Below, piece by piece: positions 35,346 through 45,169 of a stretch of DNA of 64,000 bases. Position numbers and translations under genes: made by a program. The stretch is from Planctomycetota bacterium (GTDB taxonomy: Bacteria > Planctomycetota > Phycisphaerae > Phycisphaerales > SM1A02). Position 1 is the first letter of the stretch. Each line of letters starts with the position of its first letter. The notes under the pieces were generated by a model. It ran no database searches. It was given only the letters and a program-made list of their open reading frames with translations, and had not been told where the DNA came from. Location of the stretch: contig QWPT01000002.1 of NCBI GenBank assembly GCA_003671075.1, forward strand, positions 1 to 64,000, in the 5' to 3' direction.

Positions 35346-35446
35346 GATGTCATGTGTGTCGTGGACGTCATGTGTGTCGTGGACGTCATGTGTATGTCAC
35401 GTGTAAGTCACGTGTATGTCACGTGTATGTCACGTGTTTGTCATGG
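35346..35446. repeat. Compound tandem array, 18-base then 11-base units
   Basis: Nearly three 18-base units (ga(t/c)gtcatgtgtgtcgtg) followed by about five 11-base units ta(t/a)gtcacgtg, each containing the palindrome cacgtg. It fills the gap between two convergent genes and runs over the stop codon (35430-35432) of the minus-strand gene. Confidence 0.85.
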
Positions 35447-36686
35447 AGAAGGGGAACGGCCAAGTACGGTCGGTCGCGAGCGCGTGGGTGCGCAACGCGC
35501 GTGCATTGGCGCCAAGACGCGCGCGCAATGCGTTGATTTCATCCGCACGCTGCTTGCGCGCCGCCTCGATCGCGCGCCGCATCGCAACGAAGGCTGCGCG
35601 CTTTTCCAATCGTGATCCGACGATGCGCCCGAGCAGTTGCGCCTTGGTGACGCCCGCATCGGCGAACGGATCCTGTTCGAGTCGGCTGAGTGCGCGCGGT
35701 GTCGCTGAGACATCGAACGGCTCGATGAATTGCGCGAGCGGTGCGAGGCGCGTGGCGGTGACGATGGTCATCGGAGCGATCGCCTGTTGCGAGTCGACCT
35801 TGAGGACCGCCGACATCCACGCTTCCATCGCGCCGTCGTATTTGCCGCCGCCCGTGCCGTGGATGAAGAGATCGCATGCGCCCATGCGCGCGATCGCCGT
35901 GAGGGCGAGTGCACGCGGGGCGAGTAGGGCGTTTGGTGTGTTGTCCGACGAAAGTAGTGGCAAACGCGAGGAATTTGCGCTATCGAGCCGCCAGAACGGA
36001 AGTTCATCGCCACCGAGGCGCGCGATGCGTTGGCCCTCGAGCGCATGGTTGTACGCGCCGCGCATGAGTGCAAACTCTCGTCGCATCGCCGCCGCGAGTG
36101 AGGTGCGCGCGAAGCTTGTCGCCGCCACCGTTGCGTCGATGCGTGCCCGCGCGCCCAGCAGCACATTGGCTGCGTGGGCCATCTGCATCGCAAGGTTCTC
36201 GCGGCGAAACGCTCCTTGTACCGCCGATTCGATCTCCTGCAGCGCACTCTCGATCGAGGGCGGAGTCTGATGCGCGCGTTCGGGGCGCATGGTTCGAACT
36301 GGGCGGCGCAACACATTGGGGCCGCGGCCGACCGGCGAGCGCTCGAGCATCAGTCGTTCAAGCCGCCCGTCGACCAGCGCGGGAAAGCCGATGAGCGACG
36401 CGTCGTTGGTGTCGTGGTCGATCACCACATGCACCAGAGCGCCACCGCAAAGCGCGGCGATTTCTGCGCCGCGCACGAATTTTTCCGCGATGCCCGCGTG
36501 CCAGATTCCCGCTTGATGACCGGTCATGATGATGGGACGGTCAAGCGGAAGCCCAAGTTCCTCGCGGGTAACCTGTCGCCAGGAAACTAGGGATTCGCCC
36601 GCGAATTGCGCACTTTCGCGACCATCAAAGCGTGCTTTCGCGCGCGCCGCCAGAATGGTGGATAGCTCGGACGCGACTGCGTTCAT
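35430..36686 (-). CDS. Hypothetical protein with a BshC-like N-terminal motif
   Basis: 418 residues from ATG 36686, whose ATGA overlaps the glycosyltransferase stop; the frame is open to 36755 but overlaps that gene more. The segment IIMTGHQAGIWHAGIAEKFV followed by HVVIDHDTND resembles the TGQQ-x-G-L and DHD regions of BshC (bacillithiol synthase), but overall similarity appears weak and no bshA/bshB is nearby. A later GTGGGKYDGAMEAW is distinctive. Last of four tightly coupled minus-strand genes. Bacillithiol synthesis is not claimed. Confidence 0.7.
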   Translation of the reverse strand: MNAVASELSTILAARAKARFDGRESAQFAGESLVSWRQVTREELGLPLDRPIIMTGHQAGIWHAGIAEKFVRGAEIAALCGGALVHVVIDHDTNDASLIGFPALVDGRLERLMLERSPVGRGPNVLRRPVRTMRPERAHQTPPSIESALQEIESAVQGAFRRENLAMQMAHAANVLLGARARIDATVAATSFARTSLAAAMRREFALMRGAYNHALEGQRIARLGGDELPFWRLDSANSSRLPLLSSDNTPNALLAPRALALTAIARMGACDLFIHGTGGGKYDGAMEAWMSAVLKVDSQQAIAPMTIVTATRLAPLAQFIEPFDVSATPRALSRLEQDPFADAGVTKAQLLGRIVGSRLEKRAAFVAMRRAIEAARKQRADEINALRARLGANARALRTHALATDRTWPFPFSMTNT

Positions 36687-37468
36687 CCGAGCTCGCCCTC
36701 CCGCAAGCCGTCCCGCAAGCCATCGAGCGCTCGCAGCGGAAGTCGGCTTGCGCATCGACGGATCTCGCGGTGCATAGTGGCGCGGTAGGTCATGAGTCGG
36801 CGATTAGGCTCATCGAGTCCATTGCCAAAGGTGCGCGTCATGTCGACATAGATGCGGCGAACCGCCATTTCCTCGATGCGCAGTCCAGCGGCGCACGCTT
36901 GAACCCAGAATTGCATCGGAAAGTCGTAGCCGCTCACATCAAGGTGGAGGTTCGCGCAGACGCTGGCGCGATAGGCCTTGTAGCCACAGAAAGCATCGGA
37001 AATGCCGAGCGAAAGCCGCTCGTTGAGCTCGCGGGTAAGCAACGCGTTGATGCGTCGGCGGTCTTCGGGAGCGGGATCGCCGGGCAGCGACTCATCGACA
37101 TAGCGCGAACCGGAGATCAGATCTGCCTCGCCGCGCACGATCGCGGCCACGAAGTTCGGCAGGCTCGCGGGCTCGTGCTGCTCATCGCAGTCCATCGAGA
37201 TCACCCAGTCGTAGCCGCGAAAATCAGCCCATTCCAGCATGTCCTGCATCGCTCGGCCGTAGCCACGGTTCTTGCCATGACGAATGACCTCCACCGGATG
37301 GGTGGCGAGAATGGCAGGGGTCGAATCGGTCGAGCCGTCGTCGATCACCAGGATCTCGCCGTTGAATCCGACAGCGTGTCGCGCGACCTCGGCCAGCACG
37401 CGGTCCACCGACTTCTCCTCATTGAAGACGGGAATCGCAACAAGAATGCGGGGAAGAGTCGTGGTCAT
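36683..37468 (-). CDS. Family 2 glycosyltransferase (dolichyl-phosphate mannosyltransferase-like)
   Basis: 261 residues. GT-A fold: LVAIPVFNEEKSVDRVLAEV, ILVIDDGSTDST, NRGYGRAMQDML and WVISMDCDEQHEP with the DxD-type acidic residues (MDCDEQH) for nucleotide-sugar metal binding; SGYDFPMQFWVQACAAGLRI is the acceptor-side block. No membrane helices, so it probably works on a polyprenyl phosphate at the inner face of the membrane. Overlaps both neighbours by four bases (ATGA). Confidence 0.92.
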   Translation of the reverse strand: MTTTLPRILVAIPVFNEEKSVDRVLAEVARHAVGFNGEILVIDDGSTDSTPAILATHPVEVIRHGKNRGYGRAMQDMLEWADFRGYDWVISMDCDEQHEPASLPNFVAAIVRGEADLISGSRYVDESLPGDPAPEDRRRINALLTRELNERLSLGISDAFCGYKAYRASVCANLHLDVSGYDFPMQFWVQACAAGLRIEEMAVRRIYVDMTRTFGNGLDEPNRRLMTYRATMHREIRRCASRLPLRALDGLRDGLREGELG

Positions 37469-38271
37469 GGAGTTGGGCCGTGAGGGGCGGTGCGACTTTC
37501 GAGCTGGATGAGGACGGAGGTTTCGTCGCGTCGTCGCGGAAAGATTCCAAGAATACGCACTTCTTCGCGTCGTTCCTCGCCCACGATGCCGCGCCCGGGC
37601 ACGACGAAGATCGTCGATTGCACATGGGCTTCGGCGACATCGAGGGTCACATCGAAGGTGAGTTCGAGCACAGTCGCACGCGCGCGTGTTCCGGCGAACT
37701 CGACATCTGCTTCGCCAGTGATGCGCAGCGAACGGCGGGCGCGACCGTTTCCCCGAGCTTTTCCAGCTGAAAGCGTGAGAACTTGCATGGCCGATCCGCC
37801 CTCGAGGTCGGTGAGGGCGGTGAGGATTGGAATGGCGAATGGCAGTCCGTCGGCGAATTTGCTGAGTGAATCCTCGTCGTGGGTCGCGACCTCCCGCAGC
37901 AGAAGCGCACCGTCGGCGCGGCGCTCAAGCATCATGCGTTCCGCGGGGATTTGCCCTTGCGAATCGGCGTTTACGTCGGTTTCGTCGATTAGCATCTCTT
38001 CGAGAATCGTGTGCTCCAGCGTACTGCTCACTCTTTGCACGATCCGCTTTCCCTTGCGCTTGCCTGTGAGAACCTCATAGGTCGCGACGCTGCCGCAAGG
38101 TCTCACCAGATCGTCGAGCGCCACGCTCGATCGCGCTGGCTGAAGCGGACCGTGCTTGAAAACAGCCTCAATGGAAGTCCGGCTCTCTGGCGCGACGCTC
38201 GCCTTCTGCGTGGTCGAGCAGCCCGCGGCCGCGATCACAAGCAGAAAGAAAAGTGCGGAAACGCCTTGCAT
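37465..38271 (-). CDS. Lipoprotein of unknown function
   Basis: 268 residues. The N-terminus MQGVSALFFLLVIAAAGCS is a clear lipoprotein signal with lipobox AAGC (Cys18). The rest is beta-rich (CGSVATYEVLTGKRKGKRIV, LRITGEADVEFAGTRARATV, THVQSTIFVVPG-like strands near the end) and resembles none I recognise. It overlaps the glycosyltransferase by four bases and the preceding gene by one. Confidence 0.8.
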   Translation of the reverse strand: MQGVSALFFLLVIAAAGCSTTQKASVAPESRTSIEAVFKHGPLQPARSSVALDDLVRPCGSVATYEVLTGKRKGKRIVQRVSSTLEHTILEEMLIDETDVNADSQGQIPAERMMLERRADGALLLREVATHDEDSLSKFADGLPFAIPILTALTDLEGGSAMQVLTLSAGKARGNGRARRSLRITGEADVEFAGTRARATVLELTFDVTLDVAEAHVQSTIFVVPGRGIVGEERREEVRILGIFPRRRDETSVLIQLESRTAPHGPTP

Positions 38272-39731
38272 CAGTCCACGGGAAGGCCCTTCGCCTTCCA
38301 GAGTGTTCGCAAGTCTTCGAGCGAGATCAGCTCGGTGACCGAGCCGTCGATGTCCACGCGGCGCACGCGCTTTCCGAGGGCATCGAACTCCTGCACGATC
38401 TTCGCCGGCGCTGAACCCTGCTGAGTCTCAAGCTTCCACCCATTGGTGATGCGAGTCCACGATTCCTTGCGCTGCGGAAGCTTTTGTTCGCGCTGATCGA
38501 ACGCGTAGTCCTTGAATTCGATCGCAGTGACGGAGGGATCGCGCGGCAACAATTCACCAATCACGATGAGCTCTGCTTGCGACAGGTAAACCGGCGGAAG
38601 GGGCCATTCCTGCGGCTCGCGCGTCATTCCATCCTTGCTGGCGGTGATCACTTGAAGTTTCGAGCGTGGCGCTCCTGAACTGGGCGCAAGGCGCAGTCCA
38701 GTCTGCGCGCTTGAGCGACTTGCGCGCTTCTGCCGTTCAGTCGAGCGGATCGACCAGGCCTCGCTCGCGCGGTCCCAGCGCACGAAGTAGCGGCTCTGCG
38801 CGTCAAGGGTATGGGTCGAGTCGTCGCCGATCACCACTCGCGCATCGATCGAGGCCAAGAGCCCCAGCTCACTGTCTTCACCCTTGAAGGTGGCGGCGTT
38901 TTTGGAGGCGTCAACCTCGCCCTGTCGTCCTTCGCGGACGCGGACGATCATGTAGCCGTAGTCCTTTTTCTCGCCATTTTCGCCTGGTTTCCACATGCGA
39001 TACACCCGCGGCTCCAAGCCAATCGTCGCGCGCAGCGTGGTCGCGTTGATAGCGGCGGAGATGGTGGCACCGCGGAGAAGCAGATCGTTGTTTTCCGCGA
39101 GGGCCTTGTCGGCGTCGCGAATTTCGATGGTGGCGAACGCGCGGTCAAGGAGCGGACGCACGCGCGCGAACTCCGAATCAACGAGCAGCAGCGAGAGCAC
39201 GAGATATCCGTCGGTCGAGTTGGGAATCACCAGCAATCCCATGATGCCGCGCCCGCCTGAATCAAGCGGAACCCCGAGGTACATGAGATGTCCCTCGCGG
39301 CTACCGAACATCCGAGGCTCGTTGACGATCATGTCGAGCTTCTGATTTTTGTTGATGAGTTCTTTGAGGTAGTCGTCGCACTGAATTTTCGCGGTGGTTC
39401 CAGCACGGGACGCGGTGAGCGATGAAGCCCGAATGCGCCACGCCGGCTGCTCGGCGCCGTCGGCAAGCAGGTAGCTGGTCGTGGCGGCGCGCTCGATGCG
39501 CACGGCGGTACCAATCGGAACCCGCATGCGAAACCCCAATGCTTCGGCATCGAGCGGTGCGGACGCGAGGCCTTCGTCAGCGGCCGCAGTGGCAGCTTGG
39601 GAGGTCGCGAGGACCGAGAACCATGCTCCCGCAGGCTCGCAAACCATCATTGTGCTGCAAATCATCGCCGCGCCGAGCCAGGCTCGAACCGGCAACTGCC
39701 CAATCAAACGAGAAGCAAGGTCATTGAACAC
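38271..39731 (-). CDS. Exported hypothetical protein, first gene of a coupled cluster
   Basis: 486 residues from GTG 39731, which gives a normal signal sequence (FNDLASRLIGQLPVRAWLGA then MICSTMMV); the open frame starts at 39782. No known domain. It contains several lipocalin or beta-barrel-like stretches (HLMYLGVPLDSGGRGIMGLL, YGYMIVRVREGRQGEVDASK, YFVRWDRASEAWSIRSTE) and an acidic C-terminus (SVTELISLEDLRTLWKAKGL). The TGA overlaps the next ATG by one base. Together with the next three genes it may form a cell-envelope glycan unit; that is inference. Confidence 0.75.
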   Translation of the reverse strand: MFNDLASRLIGQLPVRAWLGAAMICSTMMVCEPAGAWFSVLATSQAATAAADEGLASAPLDAEALGFRMRVPIGTAVRIERAATTSYLLADGAEQPAWRIRASSLTASRAGTTAKIQCDDYLKELINKNQKLDMIVNEPRMFGSREGHLMYLGVPLDSGGRGIMGLLVIPNSTDGYLVLSLLLVDSEFARVRPLLDRAFATIEIRDADKALAENNDLLLRGATISAAINATTLRATIGLEPRVYRMWKPGENGEKKDYGYMIVRVREGRQGEVDASKNAATFKGEDSELGLLASIDARVVIGDDSTHTLDAQSRYFVRWDRASEAWSIRSTERQKRASRSSAQTGLRLAPSSGAPRSKLQVITASKDGMTREPQEWPLPPVYLSQAELIVIGELLPRDPSVTAIEFKDYAFDQREQKLPQRKESWTRITNGWKLETQQGSAPAKIVQEFDALGKRVRRVDIDGSVTELISLEDLRTLWKAKGLPVD

Positions 39732-40024: not shown

Positions 40025-40059
40025 CATGACAGGCACGACAGGCATGACAGGCACGACAG
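40025..40059. repeat. 9-base tandem array, 4 copies
   Basis: Alternating catgacagg and cacgacagg units, in the predicted rpsJ leader. Confidence 0.85.
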
Positions 40060-40209: not shown

Positions 40210-40518
40210 ATGACTGGTGGCAAATTCCGAATCCGCATGGAGGCCTACGACCACCAGGCGCTTGACGCTTCGGCTCGAGAGATCGTTGACCAGGCGAAGC
40301 GCACCGGCGCTCGCGTTGCAGGTCCGATCCCGCTGCCCACTCGCCGAGAGATCTACACAGTCAACCGTTCGCCGTTCATCGATAAGAAGTCGCGCGAGCA
40401 GTTCGAAATCCGAACGCACAAGCGCGTCATCGACATCACTGAGTGGAACCACCGCACCACCGACGCGCTTCAGCGCCTCGTTGTGCCAGCCGGTGTATTC
40501 CTCCGCATTAAGGCTTGA
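40210..40518 (+). CDS. rpsJ: 30S ribosomal protein S10
   Basis: 102 residues, canonical uS10 ([60 protein letters not shown]). Binds the 3' domain of 16S rRNA in the 30S head and also NusB in antitermination. First gene of the 28-gene superoperon; no tuf or fusA lies upstream, unlike many bacteria. 147 bases separate it from rplC. Confidence 0.97.
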
Positions 40519-40665
40519 TTTGTCGGTTGCCTCCGCAAAGTGCGCCAGGCAGCTCGGCAAGAAACAGGTCATCGACAGCACAGTCAATCCAAAGTCCGAC
40601 AGCAAACGTCATGTGCGGTGCTTGCACCGAACCCCTGACGGAATCGCTAGAAAGCCAACGAAATC

Positions 40666-41367
40666 ATGAGCAGCACTCCCTGCAAGTTCGCCATCCTCGG
40701 TCGCAAGATCGGTATGACGCGCTATTTCCTCGAGAACGGGACCAACATCCCGGTCACCGTGATTGAAGCCGGTCCTTGCGTTGTGACGCAGGTCAAGACC
40801 GCTGATCGCCACGGCTACGCAGCGATTCAGATCGCATTCGACGATGTGAAGCCGCGCAATTCGACCATGGCCGTGATTGGCCATGACATGAAGGCCGGCT
40901 CCACCCCCAAGCGCATGCACCGGGAAGTGCGCATGGCGGACGATGCTGCTGCCAACGGCTTCCAGCTCGGCCAGATCATCGATGTCAATGCCCTCGACGG
41001 CACTGCCTATGTCGATGTCGTCGGCACCAGCAAGGGCAAGGGCTTCGCTGGAAACATGAAGCGAAACAACTTCAAGGGAATGAGCGCGACCCACGGTACG
41101 GAGCGCAAGCACCGAACCGGCGGCAGCATCGGCTCCCACGGTACTGACCGTGGTCACGGCGCGAAGATTAAGAAGGGCAAGCGTATGTCCGGCCACATGG
41201 GTGACGAGCGCGTCACCGTGCGCAGCCTGGATGTCGTCAAGATCGATGTCGAGAGGAACCTGCTGCTCGTCAAGGGCCCGGTTCCTGGCGCAAACGACGG
41301 ATACCTCTTTATCCGTCCGGCTACCCGCCTCTTTAAGCGGAAGTCGAAGAAGCTCACGGCGAAGTGA
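40666..41367 (+). CDS. rplC: 50S ribosomal protein L3
   Basis: 233 residues. uL3 reaches the peptidyl transferase centre. Signature GFAGNMKRNNFKGMSATHGT followed by GSIGSHGTDRGHGAKIKKGK is present, as is the N-terminal ILGRKIGMTRYF. About 25 residues longer than the E. coli protein, the extra residues being at the N-terminus and around residues 85-100. A 324-base gap follows, the longest in the operon. Confidence 0.97.
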   Translation: MSSTPCKFAILGRKIGMTRYFLENGTNIPVTVIEAGPCVVTQVKTADRHGYAAIQIAFDDVKPRNSTMAVIGHDMKAGSTPKRMHREVRMADDAAANGFQLGQIIDVNALDGTAYVDVVGTSKGKGFAGNMKRNNFKGMSATHGTERKHRTGGSIGSHGTDRGHGAKIKKGKRMSGHMGDERVTVRSLDVVKIDVERNLLLVKGPVPGANDGYLFIRPATRLFKRKSKKLTAK

Positions 41368-41691
41368 TTCGTCCCTGAGCGCAAGAGTGAGAACACGTCT
41401 GAATTTGTTTGTCATCCCTGCGGCGCGTGAGCTGCAGGGGGTTTGAGGTGAATGAACGAGTCCGAGGCCCGCAGGGGTACTCGGGCGCCAGCAAGGCCGA
41501 ACTGGAACCGGCTGGCAACAACAAGTCCGTATCTCATGGTCGGTGTGGGCCGCTCGAGCAAACAAAGTTTGCAACAAGCGCGCCTCTTCCGAACCTGAGG
41601 ATTCACCAAGTCGAGTCCTACCCCGTGCCACCAATAACAGGCACGCGGAGGGCGAAGCGAAGTGCGGGCGCGGCCCGCGAGAGGCGAAGCA
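41368..41691 (+). other. 324-base spacer between rplC and rplD
   Basis: Normally these genes are adjacent. A 9-base stem with one G-U pair (41416-41424 with 41431-41439, ccctgcggc / gctgcaggg) is followed by ggtttgagg, not by a T run. An open frame 41409-41699 overlapping the rplD start has Arg/Ser/Gly composition without likeness to protein. No tRNA or other RNA gene was recognised. It may be a structured regulatory leader for rplD. Confidence 0.5.
41416..41439 (+). other. Stem-loop in the rplC-rplD spacer
   Basis: Arms ccctgcggc and gctgcaggg with a 6-base loop gcgtga. In E. coli the S10 leader regulated by L4 lies ahead of rpsJ; here a hairpin sits directly in front of the L4 gene. A regulatory role is inference. 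Confidence 0.4.
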
Positions 41692-42459
41692 ATGATTGAA
41701 CTGCCGATTTACGACACTGCAGGCACAAAGGTAGACACCCTGAAGATTGACGAGCAGACGCTCGGCGGAGAAATCCGTCACGCACTCCTCAAGCAGGCGT
41801 ATGTCATCACCCACGGCAACCAGCGCCAGGGTTCCGCTCGAACCAAGAGCCGCGGCGATGTCCACGGTTCGACGCGCAAGATCTACAAGCAGAAGGGCAC
41901 TGGTAGCGCGCGCGCCGGCGCCGCTCGCACCGCAATCCGCAAGGGTGGTGGTGTTACCTTCAAGAAGACCCGCACTCGCGAGGACTTCCGAACCGAGCTC
42001 CCCAAGAAGATGCGCCGTCTGGCCAATCGCAACGCGCTTCTTGCCAAGCTCGTTGACAACGAAGTCAAGTGCTTCGCGACGATTGACTTCAAGACGCCAA
42101 AGACTTCTGACTTCGCCAAGATGATGGAAGCGGTTGGCATCAACCGTACCTGCCTCTTCGCTACCGAGAAGTCCAATCGCAACGCCTTCCTCTCTGCGCG
42201 CAACTGCGCCGGAGTCGATGTGTGCCGCATTGACCAGCTCAACGCGTTCTCGCTGCTGAACCACCGATTCCTTGTGGTGGACAAGGCGGCGCTCATCTCC
42301 TTCCTCGAGGGAACCTGCTTTGACGGTGTGCCTGGAGACGAGGCCGACGCGCCGAAGACTCCTGAGCCAACTCCGGCGAGCACGGCGACTGCACCGAAGA
42401 AGGCTGCACCGAAGAAGTCTGCCGCCTCGGTAACGAAGGCCAAGAAGGAGGTCGCGTAA
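41692..42459 (+). CDS. rplD: 50S ribosomal protein L4
   Basis: 255 residues from ATG 41692. uL4 with the long tunnel-lining loop (RQGSARTKSRGDVHGSTRKI, GSARAGAARTAIRKGGGVTF) intact. The globular part ends near residue 218, after which a Lys/Ala/Pro/Thr tail (PKTPEPTPASTATAPKKAAP onward) adds about 36 residues, a basic extension uncommon outside this group. Followed directly by rplW with no spacer. Confidence 0.96.
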   Translation: MIELPIYDTAGTKVDTLKIDEQTLGGEIRHALLKQAYVITHGNQRQGSARTKSRGDVHGSTRKIYKQKGTGSARAGAARTAIRKGGGVTFKKTRTREDFRTELPKKMRRLANRNALLAKLVDNEVKCFATIDFKTPKTSDFAKMMEAVGINRTCLFATEKSNRNAFLSARNCAGVDVCRIDQLNAFSLLNHRFLVVDKAALISFLEGTCFDGVPGDEADAPKTPEPTPASTATAPKKAAPKKSAASVTKAKKEVA

Positions 42460-42738
42460 ATGGACCCCATCCACATCATTGTTCGTCCGATCGTGACTGA
42501 AAAGGCTACTTGGGGCTCCGGCCACCAGAACCGCTTTGCATTCGAAGTCGCCAGGACTTCGTCCAAGACGGATATCAAGTACGCCGTTGAGTCGCTTTAC
42601 AAGGTTCGAGTTGTCGGCGTCTCAACGCAGAACCGCCACATCCGCGCCCGTGCTTACAAGTACGGCATCGTGGATGGCAAGGTCTGGAAGCGCGCTGTCG
42701 TCAAGATCCACCCCGAAGACAAGATCGAGCTCTTCTGA
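42460..42738 (+). CDS. rplW: 50S ribosomal protein L23
   Basis: 92 residues. uL23 sits at the exit tunnel and docks trigger factor and SRP. IVRPIVTEKATWGSGHQNRF and the KYAVESLYKVRVVGVSTQNR helix-strand are typical; the extended loop is basic (RHIRARAYKYGIVDGKVWKR). Begins on the base after the rplD stop. Confidence 0.97.
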   Translation: MDPIHIIVRPIVTEKATWGSGHQNRFAFEVARTSSKTDIKYAVESLYKVRVVGVSTQNRHIRARAYKYGIVDGKVWKRAVVKIHPEDKIELF

Positions 42739-42756
42739 GCCGCGAGGTATTCCTAA

Positions 42757-43608
42757 ATGGCTATTCGAGTCTACAAGCCGGTCACCAACGGACGCCGAAA
42801 CGCGTCGGTGAACCTCCATTCGGAAGTGACCAAGAAGACCCCTGAGAAGGCGCTTCTCGCCCCGCTCGTTCGCGGCAGCGGACGCAACGTCCAGGGCAAG
42901 ATCACCATCGCTGGTCGCGGTGGAGGTCACAAGCGTCGCTACCGCAAGATCGACTTCCGTCGCAACAAGGACGGAATGACGGCGACTGTCGTCGGTATCG
43001 AGTACGACCCCAACCGCTCCTCGCACATCGCGCTCCTTGAGTACGCTGATGGCGACAGGCGCTACATCATTGCGCCGAAGGGCCTCACCGCCGGCGATGT
43101 GATTGGAAGCTCGACCGAGCCGATGGACCCGAAGCCGGGCAATTGCACTCCAATCAAGCACATTCCGACCGGTATCGCGCTGCACAACATTGAGATCGAG
43201 CCGGGTGCCGGCGGTCGTCTGTGTCGCGGCGCGGGTATGTCGGCGCGTCTGACCAACAAGGAAGGACGCTGGGCAACCATCGTGCTCCCTTCTGGTGAAA
43301 TCCGCCAGGTCTCGATGGAATGCCGGGCAACGGTTGGCGAGGTCGGCAACGCTGATCACGCGAATGTCGTTCTCGGTAAGGCCGGTCGTAATCGTTGGCT
43401 GGGACGTCGTCCGACGACCCGTGGTCTTGCGATGAGCCACCACGCTCACCCGCACGGCGGTGGTTCGGTGTCCAAGGGTGGACGCGAGCCATGTAACTAT
43501 TCGGGTACGTTCGCCAAGGGCGGACGAACTCGTCGTTACGGCAAGTCCAGCGATTCGCGCATCATCCGCCGTCGTCGCAGCAAGCGATACGGTCAGTTGA
43601 AGCTGTAA
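42757..43608 (+). CDS. rplB: 50S ribosomal protein L2
   Basis: 283 residues. uL2 is needed for subunit joining and peptidyl transfer. The C-terminal block GVAMNPVDHPHGGG of most bacteria appears here as RGLAMSHHAHPHGGGSVSKG, a shifted variant of the MNPVDHPHGGG loop that keeps the HPHGGG histidine. GRGGGHKRRYRKIDFRRNKD is normal. Followed by a 192-base spacer with a 38-base repeat array. Confidence 0.97.
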   Translation: MAIRVYKPVTNGRRNASVNLHSEVTKKTPEKALLAPLVRGSGRNVQGKITIAGRGGGHKRRYRKIDFRRNKDGMTATVVGIEYDPNRSSHIALLEYADGDRRYIIAPKGLTAGDVIGSSTEPMDPKPGNCTPIKHIPTGIALHNIEIEPGAGGRLCRGAGMSARLTNKEGRWATIVLPSGEIRQVSMECRATVGEVGNADHANVVLGKAGRNRWLGRRPTTRGLAMSHHAHPHGGGSVSKGGREPCNYSGTFAKGGRTRRYGKSSDSRIIRRRRSKRYGQLKL

Positions 43609-43621
43609 TGATTGATTGAAT

Positions 43622-43725
43622 CGGAGTCGTCGAAGAACTCGCCGAGTCCGTAAGTGAGCCGGAGTCGTCGAAGAACTCGCCGAGTCCGTAAGTGAGCCGG
43701 AGTCGTCGAAGAACTCGCCGAGTCC
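43622..43725 (+). repeat. 38-base tandem array, 2.7 copies, each with a hairpin element
   Basis: Units begin at 43622, 43660 and 43698 and are identical until the third decays at taagtgagc. Each contains a 26-base segment (43624-43649, 43662-43687, 43700-43725) that can fold as an imperfect 10-base stem with a short loop and is related to single copies at 47922 and 48727. It starts 13 bases after the rplB stop. There are no unrelated spacers, so it is not a CRISPR array. Confidence 0.9.
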
Positions 43726-43800
43726 TAAACAGAGTCTGAGTTTGCGAAGTCAGTGGATATCCACGCCGTGCATGCGGCGAGAACCTCAAGAGAACCAACC

Positions 43801-44079
43801 ATGTCGCGTTCGCTCAAGAAGGGTCCATACGTCGTCGAGAGTCTGTACCGCAAGGTTCAGAAGCAGGAAACCGCTACCAAGCGCACTCCGATCAAGACCT
43901 GGTCCCGTGCCTGCACGATCGTTCCCGAGTTCATCGGGTTCACTTTTCAGGTGCACAACGGGCGTCAGTTCATCGATGTCTATTGCACTGAAGACATGGT
44001 TGGTCACAAGCTCGGCGAGTTCTCGCACACTTGCACGTTCCGTGGCCACACCAACAAGAAGGAGAACCTCAAGGTCTGA
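43801..44079 (+). CDS. rpsS: 30S ribosomal protein S19
   Basis: 92 residues from ATG 43801; the frame extends to 43753 without conserved residues. uS19 in the 30S head contacts S13. [40 protein letters not shown] and [20 protein letters not shown] are canonical. Confidence 0.97.
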
Positions 44080-44110
44080 TCGCTCTGCGATCTGAACCGA
44101 GGTAACTGCC

Positions 44111-44446
44111 ATGTCTTTCCAGGCCTGCCACCGATTTGCTCGTATCGCGCCCCGCAAGGCGCGCCTCGTCGCGGACTTGATCCGCGGCAAGCGCGTCGAC
44201 GAGGCGCTCGTTGCGCTCGATTTCTCGAAGAAGCGCGGTTCTGCCTTCATCTCTGTCGTGCTCAAGAGCGCGATCGCCAATGCGGAAGAGAAGAATGCCG
44301 ACCCGACCAAGCTCATCGTGAGCGAGTCCCGTATCGACGAGGGTCCGACCCTCGATCGTTTCCAGCCCAAGGACCGCGGTCGCGCGCATCCGATCAAGAA
44401 GCGCACGTGCCACATTCACGTCGCCGTCGAGGAGCGCGGAGCCTAA
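44111..44446 (+). CDS. rplV: 50S ribosomal protein L22
   Basis: 111 residues. uL22 lines the exit tunnel with its beta-hairpin (PTLDRFQPKDRGRAHPIKKR) and the helical core RFARIAPRKARLVADLIRGK. 31 bases after rpsS and 18 before rpsC. Confidence 0.97.
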   Translation: MSFQACHRFARIAPRKARLVADLIRGKRVDEALVALDFSKKRGSAFISVVLKSAIANAEEKNADPTKLIVSESRIDEGPTLDRFQPKDRGRAHPIKKRTCHIHVAVEERGA

Positions 44447-44464
44447 CCGCTCCGGAGAAACACT

Positions 44465-45169
44465 ATGGGACAGAAGGTCCACCCTTTCGGATTCCGAGTC
44501 GGCATCACCGAGGCGCACCGCTCCCGCTGGTTCGCACCTAAGGCGTTGTTCGGTAGCCTCCTCGTTGAGGACTACAAGATCCGCCAGTACATCGACAAGC
44601 GGCTCAACCGCACGCCGCCGTTCGCGGCGGTCAGCGACATTCTGATCGAGCGCACGCGCGACGAACTCACGGTCATCGTGAAGACCGCGCGTCCTGGTCA
44701 GGTCGTTGGTCTTCGTGGCGCTGGAATCGAGTCGCTCACCAAGGATCTCCAGACCATGACCGGCCGCAAGGTCGTCCTCAAGGTCGTCGAGATCAAGAAC
44801 CCTGACCTCGATGCCAAGCTCATCGCGGAAAGCATCGGCGAGCAGTTGAAGAAGCGCGCGAATTTCCGCCGCGTCCTCAAGATGCGCGCTGAGAGCTCCA
44901 TGCAGAACGGCGCGAAGGGAATTCGCATTCTCCTCGCCGGCCGTCTTGGTGGCGCTGAAATGAGCCGAACCCTCGATACGCGCTTGGGCTCCATTCCGCT
45001 CTCCACGCTGCAGGCCAACGTCGAATACGCCGTTGCCCACAGCTTTACGACCTACGGCGCCATCGGCGTGAAGGTGTGGGTCTTCAAGGGCCTCTTCACC
45101 GAGAACGACGAAGACCAGACCCATTCGAGTGCGGCAGGTGGCCGAGCTCGCGCCCGCGGTCGCCGTTGA
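44465..45169 (+). CDS. rpsC: 30S ribosomal protein S3
   Basis: 234 residues. uS3 at the mRNA entry channel. N-terminal GQKVHPFGFRVGITEAHRSR, the KH-2 core (TVIVKTARPGQVVGLRGAGI) and the C-terminal domain (GRLGGAEMSRT, TTYGAIGVKVWVFKGLFTEN) all match. The tail (HSSAAGGRARARGRR) is short and basic. Confidence 0.97.
   Translation: MGQKVHPFGFRVGITEAHRSRWFAPKALFGSLLVEDYKIRQYIDKRLNRTPPFAAVSDILIERTRDELTVIVKTARPGQVVGLRGAGIESLTKDLQTMTGRKVVLKVVEIKNPDLDAKLIAESIGEQLKKRANFRRVLKMRAESSMQNGAKGIRILLAGRLGGAEMSRTLDTRLGSIPLSTLQANVEYAVAHSFTTYGAIGVKVWVFKGLFTENDEDQTHSSAAGGRARARGRR

Follow-up and report, generated by a model that had tools for sequence, protein, structure and literature searches.

Do four genes that overlap one another end to end necessarily work together? 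This question is raised by a minus-strand cluster in the 64,000-nucleotide stretch of DNA analysed here (hereafter the window; positions 1 to 64,000 of contig QWPT01000002.1, assembly GCA_003671075.1), which comes from a planctomycete of the class Phycisphaerae with a draft genome of 3.35 Mb in 113 contigs. A sequence-only reading had proposed that the four products, an exported protein (Ex), a lipoprotein (Lp), a GT2 glycosyltransferase and a BshC-like protein, are needed in fixed ratio and form an envelope unit. Our comparison of genomes shows instead that the GT2 and BshC-like genes are a real, tightly co-inherited two-gene module, which is undescribed, and that Ex adjoins this pair essentially only in the family to which the window belongs. 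The cluster is thus very probably two separate modules lying side by side. The four genes are as follows.

35430..36686, minus strand: BshC-like, a BshC-fold protein of 418 amino acids, second gene of the conserved pair
36683..37468, minus strand: GT2, a glycosyltransferase of 261 amino acids, first gene of the conserved pair
37465..38271, minus strand: Lp, a lipoprotein of 268 amino acids with the lipobox AAGC at Cys18, adjoining Ex and outside the pair
38271..39731, minus strand: Ex, an exported protein of 486 amino acids, outside the pair

The described layout of four reading frames with three short overlaps was confirmed on the sequence: Ex and Lp share 1 base (TGATG), while Lp and GT2, and GT2 and BshC-like, share 4 bases each (ATGA). 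Ex starts with GTG, with TTG or an internal ATG as alternatives. All four are genuine genes, because homologues were found in 90 (Ex), 40 (Lp), 87 (GT2, counted at E below 1e-20) and 87 (BshC-like) of 101 genomes of the window's family, which cover 45 genera. Among relatives, an overlap of 1 or 4 bases is possible in 19 of 40 GT2-BshC-like pairs and in 17 of 21 Ex-Lp pairs.

Co-inheritance of the GT2 and BshC-like genes

In a sample of 150 genomes of the window's class, BshC-like was present in 99 and the GT2 orthologue, which was split from paralogues at the gap in E-values between 1e-78 and 3e-37, in 96, never without BshC-like. The cross-table is accordingly 96 genomes with both genes, 3 with BshC-like alone, 0 with GT2 alone and 51 with neither, and the three BshC-like-only cases are two marginal matches and one fragmented genome. 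The Fisher p of this co-occurrence is 6e-37, which ignores relatedness and is descriptive only. Moreover, the two genes are adjacent on the same strand with GT2 first in 93 of the 96 genomes, and lie on different contigs in the remaining three. Both co-occurrence and adjacency hold where the surrounding synteny is gone, and the neighbours of the pair, compared at 40 loci of the class outside the family, include no third conserved gene. Co-occurrence of the four families elsewhere, which the sequence-only reading had named as a check, is therefore borne out for GT2 and BshC-like (96/150 and 93/96) and not for Ex and Lp, as described below. The products of the pair very probably act in one pathway.

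In a phylum-wide sample of 246 genomes, BshC-like was found in 41, other classes included; of 20 BshC-like loci in other classes, 10 have GT2 next to BshC-like. Therefore the pairing is near-absolute in the class, not phylum-wide. At other-class loci without an adjacent GT2 (L283, L286, L287 and L288; L291 and L292; L289), the neighbours of BshC-like are guaA-like, uroporphyrinogen methyltransferase-like or purD-like, as named from sequence reading.

Fold and motifs of the two proteins

The name BshC-like had been taken from a TGHQ motif, and the predicted structure confirms it. The AlphaFold2 model (pLDDT 94.3, pTM 0.90) gave as its top Foldseek match in the PDB the BshC of B. subtilis (4wbd; E 1.9e-7, probability 1.00, 11% identity, TM 0.56 by query length), followed by a class I LysRS (1irx). 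The model agrees with the BshC fold (Rossmann core, connecting regions and C-terminal helical coiled coil) and has two long C-terminal helices. Sequence searches with BshC-like (Pfam, NCBIfam, PDB sequence, hhalign) returned nothing significant, and the protein of the window and its relatives all stayed below the cut-off of TIGR03998 / PF10079, so that the link to BshC is carried by the fold match alone. A global profile alignment placed TGHQ of BshC-like on TGQQ of BshC and HGTGGxxY on GPGExxY, a weak, independent sign of the same register.

Conservation among 46 sequences from three taxonomic depths gave the signature TGHQ-x4-H-x-G-x3-K, D90, E228-x-P-x-W232, R267, HGxGGxxY (276-283) and R407; the conserved residues include G56, H57, Q58, H63, G65, K69, D90, E228, W232, R267, H276, G277, G279, G280, Y283 and R407. 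The TG...HxG segment after the first strand appears to resemble the HIGH motif of class I synthetases. A tandem repeat at 35349-35443, made of 5.4 copies of the 11 bp unit GTCACGTGTAT and an 18 bp variant, spans the stop codon of BshC-like and extends beyond it. In a sister species (L005, G072:C57:64405-64578), a partial second copy of the BshC-like C-terminus, 60 residues long, follows the full gene at a distance of 0.5 kb.

GT2, held by the sequence-only reading to be the sole recognisable gene, is indeed the only one of the four with a significant Pfam/NCBIfam match (PF00535, 99.1 bits against a cut-off of 23.3). It carries the motifs DDGSTD, DCDEQHEP, FCGYKAYR and YDFPMQFW, and its closest PDB sequences are the dolichol/undecaprenyl-phosphate glycosyltransferases 5mlz and 9hwj. 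In NCBIfam it falls below every equivalog cut-off, with PpgS as the best (79.6 of 370 bits). Neither a signal peptide nor a clear membrane helix was found in GT2 or in BshC-like, and for this reason the pair is taken as cytoplasmic. We have here a BshC-fold family without a sequence model that occurs in the majority of the class genomes sampled and that, within this class, cannot be separated from a single glycosyltransferase.

Possible chemistry of the pair

The pair probably builds a small molecule. From fold and context, we infer a glycosyltransferase followed by a ligase of the BshC/class I synthetase type. In the cytoplasm, GT2 would transfer a sugar to a small or lipid-phosphate acceptor, with a nucleotide sugar as donor, giving a glycoside. 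BshC-like, as a class I synthetase-like (HIGH-type) protein, would activate with ATP a carboxylate, most likely that of an amino acid, and would then join the activated amino acid to the GT2 product in the way proposed for BshC and MshC. These two enzymes are thought to add cysteine to GlcN-malate and GlcN-inositol, respectively. That an enzyme with a class I synthetase fold can ligate Cys to an amino sugar is known from MshC (PMC2922099). The second module is Ex, with or without Lp, an unrelated exported protein beside the S10 ribosomal operon. As a whole, this reading (a route from GT2 to a BshC-fold ligase, and an unrelated Ex module) has in our estimate a probability of about 0.5. Within it, ligation of an amino acid to a glycoside by BshC-like is a tentative proposal that falls somewhat short of even odds, and the substrates and the product named here are a guess.

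Several points weigh against this reading. Half of the sampled BshC-like genes of other classes (10 of 20 loci) have no adjoining GT2. The hhalign probability between BshC-like and BshC is 15% or less, and sequence homology alone is not significant. The 46 BshC-like sequences contain no conserved cysteine and no known metal site that would suggest cysteine specificity. Also, the pair has no linked deacetylase of the BshB/LmbE type, which leaves a free amino sugar unexplained, and the nearest characterised relatives of GT2 act on polyprenyl phosphates, not on small acids. According to a 2015 review (PMC4360819), the activity of BshC itself had by then not been demonstrated in vitro.

GT2 may alternatively form a polyprenyl-phosphate sugar that BshC-like then modifies with an aminoacyl or similar group, the product supplying a cell-surface polymer. 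The GT2 profile does match dolichol-/undecaprenyl-phosphate glycosyltransferases best, with PpgS and AglJ among the NCBIfam models, but the score is far under the cut-offs of those families, clear membrane helices are missing from both proteins and no flippase or transferase is linked to the pair. We regard this alternative as unlikely. It is rather improbable that BshC-like belongs to the nucleotidyltransferases of the HIGH superfamily and makes an unusual nucleotide-activated donor for GT2: the HIGH-type fold and motif would agree with such a role, which would also account for the strict pairing with one GT2, but small nucleotidyltransferases are not among the top fold matches, which are BshC and class I aminoacyl-tRNA synthetases.

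Bacillithiol genes and the thiol question

True BshC (PF10079) exceeded the cut-off in five of the 150 class genomes, all of them without BshC-like and all with BshA. BshA exceeded its cut-off in seven, namely these five and two pair-bearing genomes, that is, 2 of the 99 genomes with BshC-like. The genome of the window has no match to PF10079 and no BshA above the cut-off. A role of the pair within the bacillithiol pathway was rejected, as pair-bearing genomes are almost always without BshA and true BshC.

The two pair-bearing genomes with BshA over the cut-off (G238:C223:971-2077 and L314, G253:C131:43740-44849) have no PF10079 BshC. In one of the five true-BshC genomes, from a family of the same class (L306 4264-8533, G149), adjacent bshA-bshB1-bshC genes were found with all three models over cut-off and an S-adenosylmethionine (SAM) methyltransferase gene alongside; true BshC and BshA also occur together in G158, G167, G104 and G112. 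The L306 cluster contrasts with the description of planctomycetes as being without a predicted thiol of such kind.

As a special case of the GT2-ligase route, the pair might replace the bacillithiol pathway and make a novel planctomycete low-molecular-weight thiol. This idea is attractive because a 2018 survey listed planctomycetes among the lineages in which a thiol of low molecular weight had been neither documented nor predicted (PMC6282198). The BshC fold of BshC-like is in its favour, and so are the five true-BshC genomes, which all carry BshA and all do without the pair. On the other hand, this mutual exclusion of true BshC and BshC-like is suggestive and concerns two lineages only, the missing deacetylase counts here as well, no direct sign of cysteine use was seen, and 46 of the 150 class genomes carry neither system. 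It is doubtful that the pair of GT2 and BshC-fold ligase forms the centre of an undescribed route, distinct from BshA/BshB/BshC and widespread in Phycisphaerae and part of the other planctomycete classes, whose product, a conjugate of amino acid and sugar, serves as the missing low-molecular-weight thiol of these bacteria or its functional equivalent. The pair is nonetheless a concrete two-gene candidate for the planctomycete thiol question; otherwise its product may be a sugar-amino acid metabolite or an envelope precursor.

The exported protein and the lipoprotein

Upstream of Ex lies a divergent operon, the genes of which served as control neighbours.

40210..45169, plus strand: S10 ribosomal operon (rpsJ, rplC, rplD ... 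rpsC), seen from translations

A second short repeat array is located at 40025-40059, between Ex and rpsJ.

Loci were compared in 40 genomes of the window's family. Ex, GT2 and BshC-like are grouped in all but one of them (in the exception, G031, they lie about 20 kb apart), and S10, L3, L2, S3 and further S10-operon genes are present in 37-39 of the same 40 loci. The S10/L3/L2/S3 families were found in none of the 40 class-level GT2-BshC-like loci outside the family. The flanking genes being equally conserved, the grouping of the four genes within the family is regional synteny with nothing specific to them, and gene overlaps, like within-family linkage, can arise from such synteny alone. Strand orientation, too, speaks against one operon: GT2 shares the strand of Ex in 22 of 39 family loci and is convergent with it in 17. 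Lp and GT2 run in opposite directions in 8 loci. Lp was detected by profile in 21 of the 40 compared genomes.

The distribution of Ex further separates it from the pair. A profile search covering 45 genomes that belong to other families in the order found Ex in every one, and 10 of these genomes are without BshC-like. Of the 35 genomes with both, 25 have Ex on a contig other than that of BshC-like, and in 9 the two are separated by 0.2 to 3.6 Mb. The sole nearby case is G123 (L315), where Ex lies 3.4 kb downstream of the pair; this proximity may be genuine and of independent origin, or may result from an assembly join. Moreover, Ex adjoins the S10 operon at five loci of other families (L294, L295, L296, L301 and L302), though the pair is elsewhere or absent. 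Ex therefore has its place in the surroundings of the S10 operon, and contact between Ex and the pair characterises the window's family. A tblastx search around some of the Ex loci gave no match to the S10 operon at any of them, a result that is not relied on. One distant copy of Lp (L301) is also found beside Ex, away from the pair.

A four-gene envelope unit, with GT2 and BshC-like in the cytoplasm and Lp and Ex outside and all acting together, would fit the overlaps and the near-constant grouping of Ex, GT2 and BshC-like in the family, but it was already largely refuted and is rejected here as very improbable in view of the equally conserved ribosomal genes and of where Ex occurs (distant from the pair in 34 of 35 genomes), Lp being absent from half of the 40 family loci. 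Likewise, the proposed fixed ratio of the products is unsupported: Ex and Lp are untied from the pair outside one family.

Structure prediction had been suggested for the 486- and 418-residue proteins, and it gave a PsbP/DcrB-type domain for Ex (pLDDT 89.2) and a BshC fold for BshC-like. The PsbP/DcrB-type domain forms the N-terminal half of Ex, which also has a weak Foldseek match to the EipB/DUF1849 beta fold (6ntr). Among the relatives of Lp, a hydrophobic stretch and lipobox are detectable in 13 of 21. An envelope role for Ex and Lp, separate from the pair, is plausible.

Comparison with known systems

Compared with PsbP/DcrB (Mog1-PsbP fold) and EipB/DUF1849 periplasmic proteins, Ex resembles the former in the fold of its N-terminal half, whereas the DUF1849 match is weak; as a whole it is a two-domain protein without a sequence family and is unlinked to the GT2 pair. 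BshC-like has the class I synthetase-type Rossmann core in common with MshC and class I aminoacyl-tRNA synthetases, without detectable sequence similarity to them or any tRNA-linked context seen. With BshC (TIGR03998, PF10079; 4wbd) it shares the overall fold, the TG[HQ]Q loop after the first strand, the Gly-rich GxGx..Y motif and the long C-terminal helices. On the other hand, it is 11% identical to BshC with no profile-level sequence match, has GTGG in place of GPGE and H-x-G where BshC has a Gly-rich loop, and its partner is a GT2 enzyme, not the GT4 enzyme BshA, with no BshB. Finally, GT2 has the catalytic domain and motifs of polyprenyl-phosphate glycosyltransferases (DPM1, ArnC, PpgS, AglJ), as seen in its best PDB matches, but differs from them in having no clear membrane helices, in scoring far under the family cut-offs and in standing constantly beside a BshC-fold gene.

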